The notes under the pieces: model-generated
Database searches by the model: none
Seen by the model: only the letters and a program-made list of their open reading frames with translations
Told to the model about the DNA's origin: nothing
Part shown: positions 3,985 through 63,534 of the stretch, in pieces
How positions within the stretch are numbered: position 1 is the first letter of the stretch
Layout of the letters: each line of letters starts with the position of its first letter
Translations under genes and position numbers: made by a program
Source of the DNA: Spiribacter salilacus
GTDB lineage: Bacteria > Pseudomonadota > Gammaproteobacteria > Nitrococcales > Nitrococcaceae
Reading direction: 5' to 3'
Length of the DNA stretch: 64,000 nt
Assembly: GCF_009649225.1 (NCBI RefSeq)
Contig: NZ_WJPP01000001.1
Location: forward strand, 310,001 to 374,000

Positions 3985-4287
3985 TTAGCTACCACCAAGC
4001 ATGTAGGCACGAAGCTGCCGCTCCTCCCGCATGACATAAAGAACGAGAACCCGCCTTTCATCGACACGATAAAAAATACGACACGGTGGGAACACGATCT
4101 CCCTGTATACCGACTCAGGGAGTTCTGGAGGGATTCGTCCAGATTGGGGAAAATCTTCCAACCGCTCGATCGTATTGAAAACTTCTTGCACCAGATGACT
4201 GGCAGCAGCGGGATTATCTAGCGCAATGTACTCAGCAATGGCGTCAAGTTCCTGGAGAGCAGGTTCCGTCCAGACTACTTGAGCCAT
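3985..4287 (-). CDS. ParE/RelE-family toxin of a type II toxin-antitoxin pair
   Basis: 100-residue basic protein of the ParE/RelE superfamily. The pattern is typical: ALQELDAIAEYIALDNPAAA helices, LEDFPQSGR, YREIVFPPCRIFYRVD and VLYVMREERQL beta strands. RelE members cut mRNA on the ribosome, ParE members inhibit gyrase; the sequence alone does not settle which, although the LEDFP-GR and YREI motifs are nearer ParE. It overlaps the antitoxin gene by 13 bases and is probably translationally coupled to it. The pair lies next to tRNA-Val, a common place for acquired DNA. Confidence 0.85.
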   Translation of the reverse strand: MAQVVWTEPALQELDAIAEYIALDNPAAASHLVQEVFNTIERLEDFPQSGRIPPELPESVYREIVFPPCRIFYRVDERRVLVLYVMREERQLRAYMLGGS

Positions 4288-4532
4288 TTAGCCAATTTTT
4301 CCTTGGCCTCACGTTGGCTGCAGGTTCTTCCCTCAAGTACAGCTCGCTCTCCCCTTGAGAGCCCCTCAAGCAGCTCAAGCCGGCGCTGCATGAACTGGTA
4401 ATCCTGCACATCGACAAGGTAGGCCGATGGCTGGCCATGCTCTGTGATCAAAACCGGCTCTTTAGATCGGTGCAAATCAGCCAGAATCTTTGTCGCTTGG
4501 CGCTTAAGGTTCGTAACCAGTTCAACTTTCAC
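4275..4532 (-). CDS. Phd/YefM-family antitoxin
   Basis: 85 residues. The N-terminal half (VTNLKRQATKILADLHRSKEPVLITEHGQPSAYLVDV) is the Phd/YefM DNA-binding fold, with the family hallmark EPVLITEHGQPSAYLV. The charged C-terminal tail (EGRTCSQREAKEKLAKWLK) would wrap the toxin. The first gene of the pair binds its own promoter in this family, and a perfect 12-base palindrome overlaps the -10 box upstream. A Phd-type antitoxin with a ParE-type toxin is a common mixed pairing. Confidence 0.88.
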   Translation of the reverse strand: MKVELVTNLKRQATKILADLHRSKEPVLITEHGQPSAYLVDVQDYQFMQRRLELLEGLSRGERAVLEGRTCSQREAKEKLAKWLK

Positions 4533-7462: not shown

Positions 7463-8395
7463 ATGCGTCAACTCGATACCCACCAAACCATCGAGCTGCT
7501 CGACTATCAGGCCATTGCCGATGCCTGTGCAGAGCTGCTGATACTGGCCCGCCAAGGCCAAACGCTTTGCCCACCGCGTAGCGCCATGCCAATCGCCAAT
7601 GACGGTACCTTGCTATTGATGCCCGCAACTGATCACACGATTGCCATCACTAAACTGGTGACGGTGCACCCCTTTAACGGAGATGCCGCACTGCCGACCA
7701 TTCAAGGCGAAATGGTGATTGTTGATGCTGCCAATGGCCGACGGTTGTTGCTCGTGGACGGGGCTGCCGTCTCTGCCCGGCGCACCGCCGCTGTCTCGTT
7801 ACTTGCCGCGCAACGGCTTGGAGCCCAACGTAACACGCCGGTTTTGGTTTATGGGGCCGGCACTCAAGCCCAGGTCCATTTAGAGGCCTTTCAAGCAGGC
7901 TTGGGCACCACGCATGCCTACCTATACTCACGTAGCCGCCCACGTGCAGACGCCTTGGCCAAGAAAATGCAACAACAGGGGTTAAATGTACAAGTCATTG
8001 ACGATCCCAACACCGTTTTAGATGAAACCAAAGTCATCGTTACTGCCACCACATCACAAACCCCGGTTTTACCAGAGCGTTTAGCCAGCGATACCTTCGT
8101 TGCAGCAGTGGGCGCATTTCGCCCGCAAATGGCCGAAATACCGCCAGCCTTGGCAAAAAGCAGTCAAGTTTTTATTGACACCGAAGAAGGCGCTAAAGAT
8201 GAGGCGGGAGACTTAATTCAAGCGGCAGAGCAAGGCCAGTTCAACTGGTCTGATGCGATAACGCTAGAGCAAGTGATCTGCGAGCAAGTTCAACCTCAAG
8301 GTCACGGGCCGGTAATATTTAAAAGTGTTGGACAGTCTCTTTGGGATTTAGCCGCAGCACGCGTATTAATTAATGCTACGGGCCGAGCTCCTTAA
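7463..8395 (+). CDS. Ornithine cyclodeaminase/mu-crystallin family imino-acid reductase (LhpI-like)
   Basis: 310 residues. The family includes NAD(P)H-dependent delta1-pyrroline-2-carboxylate/delta1-piperideine-2-carboxylate reductases such as LhpI, used in trans-hydroxyproline, D-proline or D-lysine catabolism. Visible motifs are LLLMPATD, AITKLVTVHP, LPTIQGEMV, the substrate-binding ARRTAAVSLLAA, and the Rossmann VLVYGAGTQAQVHLEAF. The MPATD and TIQGE motifs are nearer LhpI than true ornithine cyclodeaminase. The 3' end overlaps the convergent Lrp gene by 20 bases. An adjacent Lrp-family regulator fits an amino acid catabolic role, but that link is inference. Confidence 0.82.
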   Translation: MRQLDTHQTIELLDYQAIADACAELLILARQGQTLCPPRSAMPIANDGTLLLMPATDHTIAITKLVTVHPFNGDAALPTIQGEMVIVDAANGRRLLLVDGAAVSARRTAAVSLLAAQRLGAQRNTPVLVYGAGTQAQVHLEAFQAGLGTTHAYLYSRSRPRADALAKKMQQQGLNVQVIDDPNTVLDETKVIVTATTSQTPVLPERLASDTFVAAVGAFRPQMAEIPPALAKSSQVFIDTEEGAKDEAGDLIQAAEQGQFNWSDAITLEQVICEQVQPQGHGPVIFKSVGQSLWDLAAARVLINATGRAP

Positions 8396-8849
8396 CGGCT
8401 TCCATCGCCACAAACGTGCTCGTTGAGGCCACATGCGGCAAGCTGGAGATGTCTTCAGCCAAAACCCGACGATACGCATCGATGCTTGCGGTTCGCACTT
8501 TAAGCAAATAATCAAAGCCACCTGCGATCAGGTGGCATTCTTCAATTTCAGGAATTTGCGTGGCGGCATCGTTAAAATCCTGCAGCGCCGCTTCACGTGT
8601 ATCCAACAGCTTAACTTGAACAAAGGCAACGTGCGCCACCCCTAACGCAATTGGGTCTAGCGTTGCTCGATAGCCCCGAATAACGCCTTGGCTTTCCAGC
8701 CGCCGTAAGCGCGCTTGGGTGGGAGACTTAGAACGCCCAACCCGGCGCGCAAGCTCTGCCACACTGATTCGGCCTTCAATCGCTAGAACACGCAAAATGG
8801 CATGATCTAGCCGATCTAGCTTGCCGCCTTTGGGTTGGTCATCCGTCAT
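8376..8849 (-). CDS. Lrp/AsnC-family transcriptional regulator
   Basis: 157 residues. The N-terminal winged HTH (LDRLDHAILRVLAIEGRIS, VAELARRVGRSKSPTQARLRRLE) is followed by the RAM ligand-binding domain (FVQVKLLD, IPEIEECHLIAGGFDYLLKVRT, LPHVASTSTFVAMEAVKE). Family members sense amino acids and form dimers or octamers. The start overlaps the stop of the upstream secreted-protein gene as TAATG, so it is the third gene of a coupled operon with a sigma-54 promoter. Its targets are unknown; the overlapping LhpI-like gene and its own operon are candidates. Confidence 0.9.
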   Translation of the reverse strand: MTDDQPKGGKLDRLDHAILRVLAIEGRISVAELARRVGRSKSPTQARLRRLESQGVIRGYRATLDPIALGVAHVAFVQVKLLDTREAALQDFNDAATQIPEIEECHLIAGGFDYLLKVRTASIDAYRRVLAEDISSLPHVASTSTFVAMEAVKELGP

Positions 8850-9154
8850 TACTCAATCACATACTCAATCATTAATGCGTTAGGGACTTCTGCGTTCAAA
8901 CTCAACTCAAACTCATAACCCATAATATAAGTGAAATCTTCAGCAATCACTTCCTGAGTTTCATCGTTATAGACCGTTAAGTCTAAGCGCCCTTCTCTGC
9001 ATGTTGTAGTGCCTTCAATAAGCAGTCGGCCCATTTCCTCGCCGAAGCTCCACTCTTCTATTTCACACCCTTCAACACCGGGGGCAACGGTTTGCGCCGC
9101 TGCACCGCCGGCAATGACAACCGCACTGATAAAAGTAACGATAGTCTTACGCAT
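8849..9154 (-). CDS. Small predicted secreted protein of unknown function
   Basis: 101 residues. A Sec signal peptide is clear (MRKTIVTFISAVVIAGGAAAQ, cleavage likely after AAA). The mature part is acidic and beta-rich with two cysteines (GCEIEEW and TTCREGRL) that could form a disulfide in the periplasm. I do not recognise a family. Its ATG overlaps the DUF4168 gene stop (TAATG) and its own stop overlaps the Lrp start the same way, so all three are made from one message. Confidence 0.75.
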   Translation of the reverse strand: MRKTIVTFISAVVIAGGAAAQTVAPGVEGCEIEEWSFGEEMGRLLIEGTTTCREGRLDLTVYNDETQEVIAEDFTYIMGYEFELSLNAEVPNALMIEYVIE

Positions 9155-9486
9155 TAGTTCATTAACTCTCGAATACGCTCAGCCAAATCCATATCTTCTG
9201 CAGCGGCTTCAGCAATTGCACTATATTCAGCAACGCTGATTCCTGTTTCTTCTACAGCACTAACCATTAGCTCGCTGGCCTCCTGCTCAAGCGCCATCGC
9301 TTCGTCGCGATCTTCGGCTTGTTCGAGCAGCTCGATGTACTCATCGCGAATCTCCATTACCTCGGCCTGCGCTTCAACAAACAACTCAATCTCGCTATCA
9401 GAAAAGCTTTGCGCCAGTGTAGGCTGAGAAAACGCCAGCAGTACCAACGCAGCAGAGAGAATCATTGCTTTAAAACGTAACATCAT
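9154..9486 (-). CDS. DUF4168-type exported protein
   Basis: 110 residues with a signal peptide (FKAMILSAALVLLAFSQPTLAQ) and a highly acidic helical mature domain (SFSDSEIELFVEAQAEVMEIRDEY, then AVEETGISVAEYSAIAEAAAEDMDLAERIREL). The FSDSEIE...A...V..I pattern and the tail ISVAEYSAIAEAA match DUF4168 proteins, periplasmic proteins of unknown function. ATG 9486 lies 9 bases after AAGGA; a second ATG follows at 9483. It is the first gene after a near-consensus sigma-54 promoter. Confidence 0.8.
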   Translation of the reverse strand: MMLRFKAMILSAALVLLAFSQPTLAQSFSDSEIELFVEAQAEVMEIRDEYIELLEQAEDRDEAMALEQEASELMVSAVEETGISVAEYSAIAEAAAEDMDLAERIRELMN

Positions 9487-9526
9487 TGGTCTTCATCCTT
9501 ATTTCTAAAAGTGTCGGCCCACTACT

Positions 9527-9542
9527 TGCAAGAGTCCTGCCA
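9527..9542 (-). promoter_or_regulatory. Sigma-54 promoter of the DUF4168-secreted protein-lrp operon
   Basis: Minus strand TGGCAGGACTCTTGCA (9542-9527) matches the sigma-54 consensus TGGCACG-N4-TTGCW at all but one position, with GG (9541-9540) and GC (9529-9528) exactly 10 bases apart. Transcription would begin near 9516, leaving a 30-base leader. The divergent gene pair 9597-12406 encodes a sensor kinase and a sigma-54 activator, the obvious candidate controller. Confidence 0.75.
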
Positions 9543-9596
9543 ACAAAGACAAACCGGAACAACACGCCCGATGTGCAGTCCCAGTGAATACCAACG

Positions 9597-11033
9597 ATGT
9601 GCCAAAATGACTCAGCGAGTGTCAGTATGACCCATTTTATTCAACACAATCCACCACGGCTGCTCACCATGCTCATTGCCTCGGTGGTTATCCCCGTTAC
9701 CCTGAGTTTAGGCCTCATCGGGTACTTGGGGATCGACTGGCTAGAAAACCAAACCGAGCAGCGTATGCGCGAAGATATTGAACTGATATCTCGCTCTTTA
9801 AAAGAGCCGCTCAACCAAGCCATCAGAACGAATCAACCGGAGTTGATTCAACAATCTCTAAACTCTGCGTTTGCCTTTGGGCGCATCTATGGGGCTCATA
9901 TCTATGGCCGTAATGGTCAGCTACTGGCGGGGTCTGGCGCCGGCGTGCAACGATTTAGCGAACAAAGGGGCGAGGCGCTTGCCACCCTCGATGCAACAGG
10001 CGATGGGTATGCGGCATTAGGCAGCGATCCGATTCACGTCTACTTTATGCCGTTAACAACCGCGGGCGGACGCTTTGCGGGCCTTCTCCAACTCACCCGT
10101 CACCCCGATGAATTTCGCGATACGCTCAGCACCATCAGAACAACCGGCGCCGCAATGCTCGGCGGCATCGCGCTATTACTCGCCTTAATTGTCATGCTCG
10201 GACATCGCTTTGCCATTGGAGCGCCGCTGCGCCGACTAGAACGCAGCATGCAATCAGCGGGAGACCATGAGCTGGGATACCGCGTTACCGGTAGCGGACC
10301 CCGAGAGATTGTTAATTTATCGAAAGGGATCAACACCATGCTGATGCAGATCGAATCGTCGCGAAAACTCGCGGCGGTAGGTGAGCTATCGGCCGGCATC
10401 GCCCATCAACTTGGCACGCCGCTCAGTGTGCTGGATGGCCGAGCACAGCAATTACTCAGAAGAACGGATCTTGATGACCATCAACGCAGCAGCCTTGAAG
10501 CAATGCGCGCAGAGACTCGCCGCATAGCCGATATTGTTCAACGCCTGATGGCGTTTGCTCGAAGCATGCCTCTGCAGCCAACATTAATGCGCCTATCGAC
10601 AGCGGCAGACCACGCTATTGAGCGAATGTCACATGCGCCTGAGGCAAAAAACGTTACCCTGCATAAGCATCTTATTGAGGGTGATCCACCGATTAAGATT
10701 GATGGCGAGCGCCTAGAGGAGGCTATCTGCAACCTACTATTAAATGCATTCCAAGCCGCACCCAACGGCAATGTTTACATCGCCACTGCAAAGAAAGCAG
10801 AGGGAGTCACTCTTCGTATCGAGGACGATGGCCCCGGTATTTCTAAAGAGGATCAAGAGAAAATCTTCTCGCCCTTTTTTACCAGAAAACCCGTTGGGAT
10901 TGGCACAGGCTTAGGGCTTGCGGTGGCTTATGGCACCCTGCGCGCCCACGGCGGCCGAATACGCCTCATTCAAGGCTCGCTGCCTGGAGCCTGCTTTGAG
11001 CTATGGCTTCCCACCAACCCAGCTAGGAAATAA
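9597..11033 (+). CDS. Sensor histidine kinase, partner of the sigma-54 response regulator
   Basis: 478-residue inner-membrane kinase. TM1 (about 25-45) and TM2 (about 183-202) flank a 135-residue periplasmic sensor domain. HAMP (203-255) is followed by the H-box GELSAGIAHQLGTPLSVLDG with phospho-acceptor His270, and a HATPase domain with N-box NLLLNAFQAAP, G1 EDDGPGIS and G2 GTGLGLAVAYG. Two starts are possible (9597, or ATG 9627 giving MTHFIQ); neither has a strong ribosome-binding site. The response regulator gene begins 2 bases after the stop, so the two are cotranscribed. The signal is unknown. Confidence 0.92.
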   Translation: MCQNDSASVSMTHFIQHNPPRLLTMLIASVVIPVTLSLGLIGYLGIDWLENQTEQRMREDIELISRSLKEPLNQAIRTNQPELIQQSLNSAFAFGRIYGAHIYGRNGQLLAGSGAGVQRFSEQRGEALATLDATGDGYAALGSDPIHVYFMPLTTAGGRFAGLLQLTRHPDEFRDTLSTIRTTGAAMLGGIALLLALIVMLGHRFAIGAPLRRLERSMQSAGDHELGYRVTGSGPREIVNLSKGINTMLMQIESSRKLAAVGELSAGIAHQLGTPLSVLDGRAQQLLRRTDLDDHQRSSLEAMRAETRRIADIVQRLMAFARSMPLQPTLMRLSTAADHAIERMSHAPEAKNVTLHKHLIEGDPPIKIDGERLEEAICNLLLNAFQAAPNGNVYIATAKKAEGVTLRIEDDGPGISKEDQEKIFSPFFTRKPVGIGTGLGLAVAYGTLRAHGGRIRLIQGSLPGACFELWLPTNPARK

Positions 11034-11035
11034 AG

Positions 11036-14577
<3,542 letters not shown>

Positions 14578-23974: not shown

Positions 23975-26569
23975 ATGGGTCGTCGTATTGCCGAATTCGC
24001 TATGGATCATCCGCGGGCTGTTTTTATTGCCACGCTGCTCATCACTCTACTGGGCACCGCGTTAATCCCCCTGATTCAGATCGATACCGATCCGGAAAAC
24101 ATGCTCCCGAGCGAGCAGGAAGACCGCGTTCGGCATAACCTCATCAAAGAACAATTTAACCTACACGATATGATCGTCGTGGGTGTGGTTAATGAACAAA
24201 ATTCCAACGGCGTCTTCAACCCGCAGTCACTCACTGCGCTACATGCTTTATCAGAAGGCATTGCCGGTATTGATGGCGTTATTCGGCGCGACCTACTCTC
24301 TTTAGCCACCGTCGATAATATCGAGCAAGGCGGCGTTGGGACCATCCGGTTTGAACAAATGATGGGGACGCCCCCGCAAACCACAGAGCAAGCACTCGCC
24401 ATACGAGAAGCCACGCTCTCCCTACCCCTGTTTGCCGATACGCTTATTTCGAGTGATGGTGGAGCGACTGCGATTTACGTACCGATCGAGGCCAAAGATC
24501 AGAGTTACCGCATTGCAAACGAAATTCGAGACCTCATTAGCGAGCTCGATACCCAAGATGACTTTCACATCACCGGATTGCCCGTGGCGGAAGATACCTT
24601 CGGCGTGGAAATGTTTATTCAAATGGCCATCTCCGCACCGCTTGCGGCCTTAGTCATTTTCGCGCTGCTTTGGTGGTTCTTTCGATCCGTTACACTCATC
24701 ATCGCGCCCATGTTAATGGCCTTTGCCGTAGTGCTCACCACAATGGGCGCTTTAATCGGCATGGGTTATACCGTGCACATCATGAGCTCCATGATCCCCA
24801 TCTTTTTAATGCCCATTGCTGTGGTTGACTCGGTGCATATTCTCTCGGAATTTGCAGATCGATACCGACCAGAAAAAGGCGCTCGCAAGACCATGTCTGA
24901 GGTAATGGGGCATTTATTTACACCGATGCTGTATACCTCAATTACCTCTGGCATTGGATTTGCTTCATTAGCCTTCACGCCGATACCGCCCGTGCAAGTG
25001 TTTGGGCTTTTTGTGGGCGCCGGCATTATTCTCGCCTTTGTACTGACCATTATTTTCATTCCGGCCTATGCCGTTGCCATTAACCCAGAGCGGCTCAGCA
25101 AACTGCGTGCAGGCAGCCAGGAGAGCAGCGCTGATGAAACGGGACTGGCCCGCAGTTTGATCCGCCTAGGCACATTTGCCACGGCGCGGGCGCGTTTTGT
25201 GGTGATTGTGTTTGCCGGTAGCCTGCTGGTGGCCGGTTACGGAATCAGCCAAATCGTTGTTAATGATAACCCGGTACGCTGGTTCCAATCCCAACACCCC
25301 ATCCGCGTTGCAGATGAGGTACTTAACCGTCATTTTGCCGGCACCTATAGCGCCTACTTTCGGCTGGAATCGAATGTCGCTGAACAGGCGCCGGCCCGAT
25401 TTAAAACCCGTGTTGATGAGATTTTGAATAACGCCGAAGCACAAGGCATCACACTCAGTGAAACTTGGGCCGAGATTAGTGATCCCATCGCCGCTGATAC
25501 AACAGAATTTGAAGCGTACCTAGAACAAGTCAGCGTGGAAGTAGAAGATGCGTTATTTTTTGCTGATACCGAAAAGCTTGCCGGTTTAGAGCAACTTCTT
25601 GAAGCCACGGACGAGGCCCGCGGCGATTTGAACTTCTGGCAAAGACCCGAGAACCTTGCCTACATTGCTGAAATGCAAGAAGCACTTGCTGAGAGCCCGC
25701 AAGTGGGCAAGGTGAATACGCTCGCCGATCTCGTTCGAACGGTTTATCGCGAATTGCTCAGTGGCGACGATGCCGATTACCAGATTCCTGAAACGCGTCA
25801 AGGTGTTGCGCAAACCATCCTCAGCTTTCAGGGCTCTAATCGCCCCCATGACCTATGGCGCATGGTGACGCAAGACTATCAGGCAGCCAATCTTTGGCTT
25901 CAGCTGACCAGTGGCGATAACCAAGACATGCAACAAGTAATTGATCTGGCAGATGCCTATATTGCCGAAAACCCCTTACCTAACGGCGTAACCGCCAGCT
26001 GGGGCGGCCTCAACTACATCAATGTGGTCTGGCAGAACGCCATGGTAAAAGGCATGGCGCAGAGCCTTGCGGTTGCCTGGGTAATGGTGGCATTAATGAT
26101 GTTCCTGCTATTCCGCTCGATCATCTTTGGTCTACTTGCGATGGTTCCTCTCACCGTGAGCATTGCCCTGATCTATGGCGTTGTAGGCCTTATTGGCAAA
26201 GCTTATGACATGCCGATTGCGGTTTTATCTTCGCTTACGCTCGGCCTATCCGTTGACTTTGCAATTCACTTTATTGAGCGTAGTCGTGAGTATTATCAAG
26301 CGACGGGCCGATTTACGGAAAGCATGCGCCTGATGTTTAAGGAGCCAGCTCGAGCTATTTCACGCAACGCAATCGTCATTGCGGTGGGCTTCCTGCCGCT
26401 GCTTGCAGCGCCGCTTGTTCCCTACAACACGGTGGGTATTTTCTTAGCTAGCATAATGGCGGCTTCTGCACTCGCTTCTATCGTGCTGCTGCCGGCTATC
26501 TTAACGTTGCTCCAAAAATGGCTTATGCCAGATCGCAAGCCATCAACCACACAGGAGTCTACCTCATGA
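23975..26569 (+). CDS. MMPL/RND-superfamily exporter
   Basis: 864-residue inner-membrane pump with the RND duplication: TM1, a periplasmic domain of about 190 residues, TM2-6, TM7, a second periplasmic domain (residues 430-680) and TM8-12. Charged residues sit in TM4 (PIAVVDSVHILSEFADR) and its repeat in TM10 (LGLSVDFAIHFIERSREYY), as expected for proton-driven transport. Members of this group move lipids or other hydrophobic molecules and lack the long TolC-docking hairpins of drug pumps. ATG 23975 follows GGAG. The next gene starts at an ATGA overlap, and together with the beta-barrel gene the set could span the envelope. The substrate is unknown. Confidence 0.88.
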   Translation: MGRRIAEFAMDHPRAVFIATLLITLLGTALIPLIQIDTDPENMLPSEQEDRVRHNLIKEQFNLHDMIVVGVVNEQNSNGVFNPQSLTALHALSEGIAGIDGVIRRDLLSLATVDNIEQGGVGTIRFEQMMGTPPQTTEQALAIREATLSLPLFADTLISSDGGATAIYVPIEAKDQSYRIANEIRDLISELDTQDDFHITGLPVAEDTFGVEMFIQMAISAPLAALVIFALLWWFFRSVTLIIAPMLMAFAVVLTTMGALIGMGYTVHIMSSMIPIFLMPIAVVDSVHILSEFADRYRPEKGARKTMSEVMGHLFTPMLYTSITSGIGFASLAFTPIPPVQVFGLFVGAGIILAFVLTIIFIPAYAVAINPERLSKLRAGSQESSADETGLARSLIRLGTFATARARFVVIVFAGSLLVAGYGISQIVVNDNPVRWFQSQHPIRVADEVLNRHFAGTYSAYFRLESNVAEQAPARFKTRVDEILNNAEAQGITLSETWAEISDPIAADTTEFEAYLEQVSVEVEDALFFADTEKLAGLEQLLEATDEARGDLNFWQRPENLAYIAEMQEALAESPQVGKVNTLADLVRTVYRELLSGDDADYQIPETRQGVAQTILSFQGSNRPHDLWRMVTQDYQAANLWLQLTSGDNQDMQQVIDLADAYIAENPLPNGVTASWGGLNYINVVWQNAMVKGMAQSLAVAWVMVALMMFLLFRSIIFGLLAMVPLTVSIALIYGVVGLIGKAYDMPIAVLSSLTLGLSVDFAIHFIERSREYYQATGRFTESMRLMFKEPARAISRNAIVIAVGFLPLLAAPLVPYNTVGIFLASIMAASALASIVLLPAILTLLQKWLMPDRKPSTTQESTS

Positions 26570-28626: not shown

Positions 28627-28875
28627 ATGACAGTTAATGAAGGTCTACGCGCGATGGCAGGCTTTTTTGTGCTACTCAGCTTGGCTCTAGGCACTTGGGT
28701 GCACCCAGGCTGGTATCTTTTTACCGCATTTGTGGGTGCCAACCTGCTTCAGTCAGCCTTCACCCGCTGGTGCCCAGCCATCGCAATTCTTAAAATGCTT
28801 GGCTTCAAGCAAGAGTGCCCAATTAACGCGATTGCAGGTAATCAGCAAAAGCCGGGCCAAGCTCCGGGTGCTTAA
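28627..28875 (+). CDS. DUF2892/YgaP-like small membrane protein
   Basis: 82 residues with two transmembrane segments ([17 protein letters not shown] and [18 protein letters not shown]) and the family motif [14 protein letters not shown]. In E. coli the YgaP rhodanese carries this membrane module and is controlled by the ArsR-type YgaV, so the presence of an ArsR gene in the same locus is suggestive. A GGAG element precedes ATG 28627, 11 bases after the barrel gene. The 3' end overlaps galU by 53 bases antisense, and the last 20 residues ([13 protein letters not shown]) are probably an unstructured tail. Confidence 0.82.
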
Positions 28876-63518: not shown

Positions 63519-63534
63519 TGGCGCAAAACTTGCT
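63519..63534 (+). promoter_or_regulatory. Sigma-54 promoter of the aldehyde dehydrogenase gene
   Basis: TGGCGCAAAACTTGCT has GG (63520-63521) and GC (63532-63533) 10 bases apart and fits TGGCACG-N4-TTGCW with the variations CG for AC. Transcription would start near 63545, 45 bases before the ATG. The 215-base region 63375-63589 holds this promoter, the inverted repeat and nothing else I can identify. Confidence 0.75.

Follow-up and report, generated by a model that had tools for sequence, protein, structure and literature searches.

A conserved kinase-regulator neighborhood of DUF4168 genes, probably a ZraPSR-like envelope-response module under sigma-54 control

INTRODUCTION

The closest described counterpart of the locus considered here is ZraPSR of E. 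coli and Salmonella. As set out in the available part of PMC4987338, ZraR acts from divergent sigma-54 promoters at zraP/zraSR, and ZraP works in the periplasm as a chaperone that depends on zinc; the available text of PMC10848872 adds that ZraP represses ZraSR, and describes how CpxP, a small protein of the periplasm, negatively regulates its own two-component pair. In GlrK-QseG-GlrR, the genes for a kinase, a sigma-54 type regulator, and an envelope protein also lie together; the GlrR site is printed as TGTC-N10-GACA (PMC4987338, in the part available). The bacterial exterior has been proposed to be under the control of sigma-54 (PMC3162934, available portion). A literature search for papers naming DUF4168 or PF13767 found none.

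Here we describe a DUF4168 locus within a window of 64,000 nucleotides, the whole stretch of DNA that was analyzed. As at ZraPSR, the gene for a small periplasmic protein is divergent from a kinase-regulator pair and is preceded by a sigma-54 promoter, recognized here from sequence and conservation; the regulator is of the NtrC type, and tandem palindromes occupy the intergenic region. The E. coli palindromes GAGTAAAAATGACTC and GAGTCATTTTTACTC, which we take to be bound by ZraR, share a GAGTCA half-site with the window copy. An earlier, sequence-only reading of this DNA had stated that it knew of no described system with these parts; that is too strong, since zraP/zraSR has the layout together with divergent sigma-54 promoters. 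We propose that the locus is probably an envelope-response module on the ZraPSR pattern, with DUF4168 standing in for ZraP.

RESULTS

Layout of the locus and properties of the DUF4168 protein

The features of the locus are collected in Table 1. On recheck, the gene coordinates, the -24/-12 site, and the two TAATG overlaps that join the three minus-strand genes (AACTAATGC and GAGTAATGA) proved to be exactly as the sequence-only reading had given them, and the Pfam domains agree with the divergent sensor kinase and NtrC-type activator that it had named. The distance from TGGCAGGACTCTTGCA to the DUF4168 ATG is 40 nt, and rpoN was found in the host genome. Taken alone, TGGCAGGACTCTTGCA is unconvincing, since matches to the sigma-54 consensus occur in the window at about the chance level: TGGCA-N6-TTGCW has two exact matches against 0.64 expected (P of two or more, 0.13), the second at 24949 within a transporter-like gene, and 18 sites with one mismatch against 15.7 expected. 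Other sigma-54-like sites in the window, with scores of at least 14.5, lie at 28844-28859 (minus strand) and 63519-63534 (plus strand).

Table 1. Features of the DUF4168 locus, in positions of the window
Feature	Position	Strand	Basis or remarks
Lrp/AsnC regulator gene	8376-8849	minus	Pfam match; co-transcribed by position only, conserved membership not seen
Small exported protein gene, 101 aa	8849-9154	minus	acidic; no Pfam match
DUF4168 gene, 110 aa	9154-9486	minus	PF13767, 46.1 bits
-24/-12 (sigma-54) site TGGCAGGACTCTTGCA	9542-9527	minus	consensus score and conservation
Enhancer-like palindrome 1 TGAGTCATTTTGGCACA	9598-9614	minus	center 64 bp upstream of the -24 T
Enhancer-like palindrome 2 TGGGTCATACTGACACT, two mismatches	9618-9634	minus	center 84 bp upstream of the -24 T
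Sensor histidine kinase gene	9597-11033, start perhaps 9627	plus	TM, extracytoplasmic domain of ~120 aa, TM, HAMP, HisKA, HATPase
NtrC-type response regulator gene	11036-12406	plus	receiver, AAA+ (GESGTGKE, GAFSGA), Fis-type HTH
Possible second sigma-54 site CGGCCCACTACTTGCA, facing the kinase gene	9515-9530	plus	post hoc, tentative

The match of the DUF4168 protein to PF13767 is well above the cutoff of 25.8 bits (E = 1e-11). The protein has a probable signal peptide, and in the AF2 model the mature part forms four helices, with pLDDT at or above roughly 90 starting at residue 31; comparison with solved structures gave no clear fold match. Both exported proteins are small and acidic, as the sequence-only reading had it, each with a pI of 4.05 once the signal peptide is cut by hand. 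KatG of the same host has a pI of 4.82, so the acidity of the exported proteins is no special evidence either way. An apparent tandem pair of DUF4168 domains in a single open frame of 252 aa was seen at one further locus (L152, G186:C3:123100-123666).

The kinase-regulator pair recurs beside DUF4168

DUF4168 homologues were first drawn from 40 genomes, the host's own included. A survey of the order covered 39 genomes, 28 of them DUF4168-positive, and a survey of the class covered 276 genomes drawn out of a larger group, 27 of them positive; both positive counts include the host. The surroundings of the DUF4168 genes were scanned by profile, giving 85 distinct genes, one of which is on a Halomonas plasmid (L119); L059 and L140, where DUF4168 was absent in the scan, were dropped, and L050, which is the same as L164, was counted once. 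A gene was assigned to a module if a kinase scoring above 150 bits and a regulator scoring above 300 bits against the window proteins lay within 5 kb of it.

Module genes in this sense number 29, in 28 loci. Of the 28 genomes of the order that have DUF4168, the host among them, 20 have the pair beside it, as do 8 of the 26 further ones in the class; in G029, a member of the order, DUF4168 and the kinase each lie at a contig end. Confinement of the neighborhood to the host genome, which the sequence-only reading had named as telling against its proposal, did not prove true, since the pair recurs in other genomes of the order and the class. The loci are related by descent, so that these counts are not independent. 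The kinase is divergent from DUF4168 in 24 of the 29 module entries; in the other five, all outside the order, kinase and regulator lie upstream of DUF4168 on the same strand.

A sigma-54 site is conserved before module genes

Sites of the TGGCAGGACTCTTGCA type become strong evidence because they recur upstream of DUF4168 across genomes. On a simple score against the sigma-54 consensus, 28 of the 29 module genes reached at least 13, compared with 15 of the 56 other DUF4168 genes (Fisher P = 2e-10); of 3480 windows placed at random in these loci, 5.7% did so. Since the loci are related, this P value is too good, and the contrast with DUF4168 genes lacking the pair is the useful part. The sole miss is L129, where the pair is present and neither a sigma-54 site nor a palindrome was found.

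The palindromic -12 of the DUF4168 promoter also serves the possible site that faces the kinase. In a pattern noticed post hoc, GG stands at the mirrored place in 8 of 27 sites, against 11% in the control (binomial P = 0.008); the frequency is 8 of 22 where the kinase is divergent and 0 of 5 where it shares the strand. A single genus contributes three of the eight.

An enhancer-like palindrome accompanies the promoter

The upstream regions of module genes have in common a palindrome, TGTGTCA-N3-TGRCACA, which the sequence-only reading missed. The two copies in the window are 20 bp apart, and L033, L035, and L036 carry pairs centered at 61 and 81 bp from the -24 T. A palindrome score of at least 11 was found for 26 of the 29 module genes, compared with 8 of the 56 other DUF4168 genes and 2.9% of random windows. 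The misses are L043, L129, and the second gene of L134; L043, when properly anchored, has a 13-point copy on a score that also admits C at position 5. Because the palindrome, a 17-mer, had been drawn from some of the loci that were later scored, we made a motif-free count of 7-mers as well, using 22 of the 23 divergent loci (all but L129), with 200 random sets as a control. The commonest upstream 7-mer, TGACACA/TGTGTCA, occurred in 14 of the 22 regions, against a mean of 0.39 in the random sets; the highest-ranking 7-mer within a random set reached 9.5 on average and in no set more than 13.

Palindrome 1 is the only exact match to TGWGTCANNNTGRCACA in the 2.2-Mb host genome, and around the four one-mismatch palindromes elsewhere in that genome, a search of 250 bp found no good sigma-54 site (the best scored 12). 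Across 40 genomes, a related pattern with one mismatch gave 46 sites against 12 for the reversed control (hand-summed counts); at this stricter setting, the palindrome was absent from the module genomes G001, G002, G005, and G018. Nineteen palindrome loci were read, five of which are modules. Among the 14 others, three have a sigma-54 site 70 to 74 bp farther on, and 11 have no good site.

The two signals were also sought at DUF4168 genes outside the modules. Both precede 4 of the 16 second DUF4168 genes in module genomes, compared with 1 of 40 DUF4168 genes in module-free genomes (P = 0.02), and the remaining 12 second genes lack one or both. In L064, which is among the four, the sigma-54 site is distant; the single gene from the module-free genomes, L126, adjoins a module-type regulator. 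In the three palindrome loci with a sigma-54 site 70 to 74 bp farther on (L184, L187, and L189, all of the order), the two signals stand before a gene for a tiny acidic lipoprotein, so named by eye; these genes are possible module targets.

The module has the ZraPSR layout but differs from it in its proteins

The window regulator fits the NtrC type, with a receiver, an AAA+ domain with a GAF[TS]GA loop, and a Fis-type HTH. The loop reads GAFSGA in the window; in the 28 other loci, L126 included, it is GAFTGA in 26 and GAFSGA in 2. A maximum likelihood tree of 36 regulators comprised the 28 module loci and L126, ZraR, AtoC, GlrR, and NtrC from E. coli, and three host paralogues (a fourth, L177, is absent from the tree). 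The regulators of the module loci, 29 when that of L126 is counted, group in a single clade (97/99), with the four E. coli proteins and the three paralogues outside; GlrR and two paralogues are on long branches, so their own positions are unsure. The window regulator is 40.6% identical to ZraR and 39.5% identical to AtoC, and ZraR, in a separate clade, is not orthologous to the module regulators on this tree.

The kinases differ as well. A HAMP domain was found in the window kinase and none in ZraS; the catalytic halves of the two align, and no alignment was found between their sensor halves. The modeled sensor of the window kinase has a Cache-like order of elements at low confidence (pLDDT, 56). 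Weak sCache_3 matches were obtained for 7 of 16 and 4 of 16 module kinases with two models, the window kinase not among them, and the single-Cache match of E. coli ZraS is weak and below the cutoff.

E. coli ZraP belongs to PF13801 (Metal_resist), whereas the window protein matches PF13767 and not PF13801, and no sequence link between DUF4168 and ZraP was found (hhalign, 0.9%). Mature window DUF4168 contains neither Cys nor His, so an obvious zinc site is absent, unlike in the zinc-dependent ZraP. The genus of the window adds a second exported gene, a further difference from ZraPSR. Since DUF4168 is no homologue of ZraP by sequence, orthology of the regulators is not borne out by the tree, and the kinases align only in their catalytic halves, we regard the locus as ZraPSR-like and not as a member of ZraPSR; given the lack of a sequence link and of a clear match to a solved fold, a ZraP-like action of DUF4168 would be an analogy.

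CpxP, as DUF4168 is proposed to do, damps its own two-component pair, but CpxR is not known to be of the sigma-54 activator type, to which the module regulator belongs. In GlrK-QseG-GlrR, unlike in the module, QseG lies between kinase and regulator on the same strand, the spacing of the site differs, and GlrR falls outside the clade of module regulators, on its long branch.

DISCUSSION

Proposed mechanism

The kinase-regulator pair very probably switches on DUF4168, to judge from the conserved arrangement and signals. The membrane kinase would use its Cache-like domain to sense a condition at the inner membrane or beyond it and then phosphorylate the NtrC-type regulator, which would bind the tandem palindromes between the divergent genes and loop to RpoN-RNA polymerase at the -24/-12 site. 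DUF4168 and, in the genus of the window, the second small exported protein would thereby be turned on. DUF4168, as an acidic, helical periplasmic protein, may act in the envelope, either chaperone-like or by binding, and by analogy with ZraP it probably damps the kinase. We infer the RpoN dependence, the binding, the signal, the action of DUF4168, and the feedback. The sequence-only reading had proposed a dedicated envelope-response module, and this is partly supported by the conserved neighborhood of pair and DUF4168, the sigma-54 site, and the probable enhancer; the inclusion of Lrp and the claim of novelty are not.

The regulator and sigma-54 might instead control DUF4168 as part of a halophile switch that responds to osmotic, ionic, or nutrient conditions; DUF4168 would then be a common periplasmic protein with a structural or binding role, and would exert no feedback on the kinase. 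The genus of the window is Spiribacter-like; the kinase sensor is weakly Cache-like, and sensors of that type often bind small ligands; and the obvious zinc site of ZraP is missing from mature DUF4168. On the other hand, the three further candidate targets are tiny lipoproteins and not transporters or enzymes, which fits an envelope response, while the acidity of the exported proteins, seen in KatG as well, is neutral. We consider a halophile switch possible but unlikely, and prefer the envelope-response module.

The secreted protein is a genus-level addition and Lrp rides along

Homologues of the 101-aa secreted protein were confined to the genus, where 7 of the 40 genomes, counting the host, have one, and the gene adjoins DUF4168 in six loci, the window and L032 to L036. 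Two Cys residues are invariant among six homologues, three of which, the window protein not among them, give a weak match to the Ig-like Gmad2. We read the small secreted protein as something that this genus has added to the module.

The sequence-only reading had also counted Lrp as a member, and DUF4168, the secreted protein, and Lrp could together form one functional response, in which Lrp would feed the stress signal into metabolism. The two TAATG junctions in the window are in keeping with this, and Lrp stays beside both genes in L032; yet it adjoins just 2 of the 85 distinct DUF4168 genes, those of the window and L032, and its orthologues (76 to 81% identity, one partial) lie apart from DUF4168 in eight further congeners. 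The window Lrp adjoins a pyrroline-2-carboxylate reductase gene, which makes proline metabolism its likelier role. Lrp is no part of the conserved module and rides along in the window lineage only, and a joint response that includes it is very improbable. In both loci of congeners scanned, L095 and L097, the orthologue of the window Lrp adjoins proline dehydrogenase (putA-like); in L095 it is also near a LysE-type exporter, and a proline regulator is likely.

Loss of the pair in the closest relative

The closest relative, L032, is a metagenome contig whose DUF4168 is 84% identical to that of the window. Between DUF4168 and katG (5059-5150 of L032), the kinase and promoter are gone and a regulator remnant of about 19 residues is left, while the three target genes (DUF4168, secreted protein, and Lrp) remain; with genome completeness at 74%, the pair could have a copy at another place. 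Comparison of the target genes with those of the window gave dN/dS of 0.06 to 0.08, with dS above 1. The target genes of L032 are thus under purifying selection without regulator or promoter and can serve without such control. The promoter was lost along with the regulator, and the target proteins seem to be still of use.

That the -24/-12 match is fortuitous, with DUF4168 expressed from another promoter, is hardly credible: 0.64 exact matches are indeed expected per window, and gene order alone is no proof of control, but the site lies 31 to 69 nt before the expected start in 26 of the 29 module genes and at 49 nt in L043 after re-anchoring at its likely start (it is 148 nt away in L123), and a search for a sigma-70-type promoter in 8200-9800 of the window found none.

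Wider implications

From the conserved neighborhood, candidates emerge for the regulator, the promoter, the enhancer sequence, and the compartment of the DUF4168 family. If the envelope-response reading is true, the plan of an NtrC-type pair with a sigma-54-driven small periplasmic protein has been built more than once, from unrelated proteins, which bears on the proposal, in the available portion of PMC3162934, that sigma-54 controls the bacterial exterior. A bolder version, which we think rather doubtful, is that the module represents a second, independently assembled ZraPSR-type response, widespread in Gammaproteobacteria, in which DUF4168 would be both periplasmic output and feedback brake, the regulon would consist of tiny acidic exported proteins, and some sigma-54 promoters would stand face to face on a shared -12. 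Sharing a palindromic -12 between facing promoters would, on this version, make the production of target and regulator exclude each other.

Elsewhere in the window, at 3985-4532, two small overlapping genes look by eye like a ParE/RelE-type toxin and its antitoxin.
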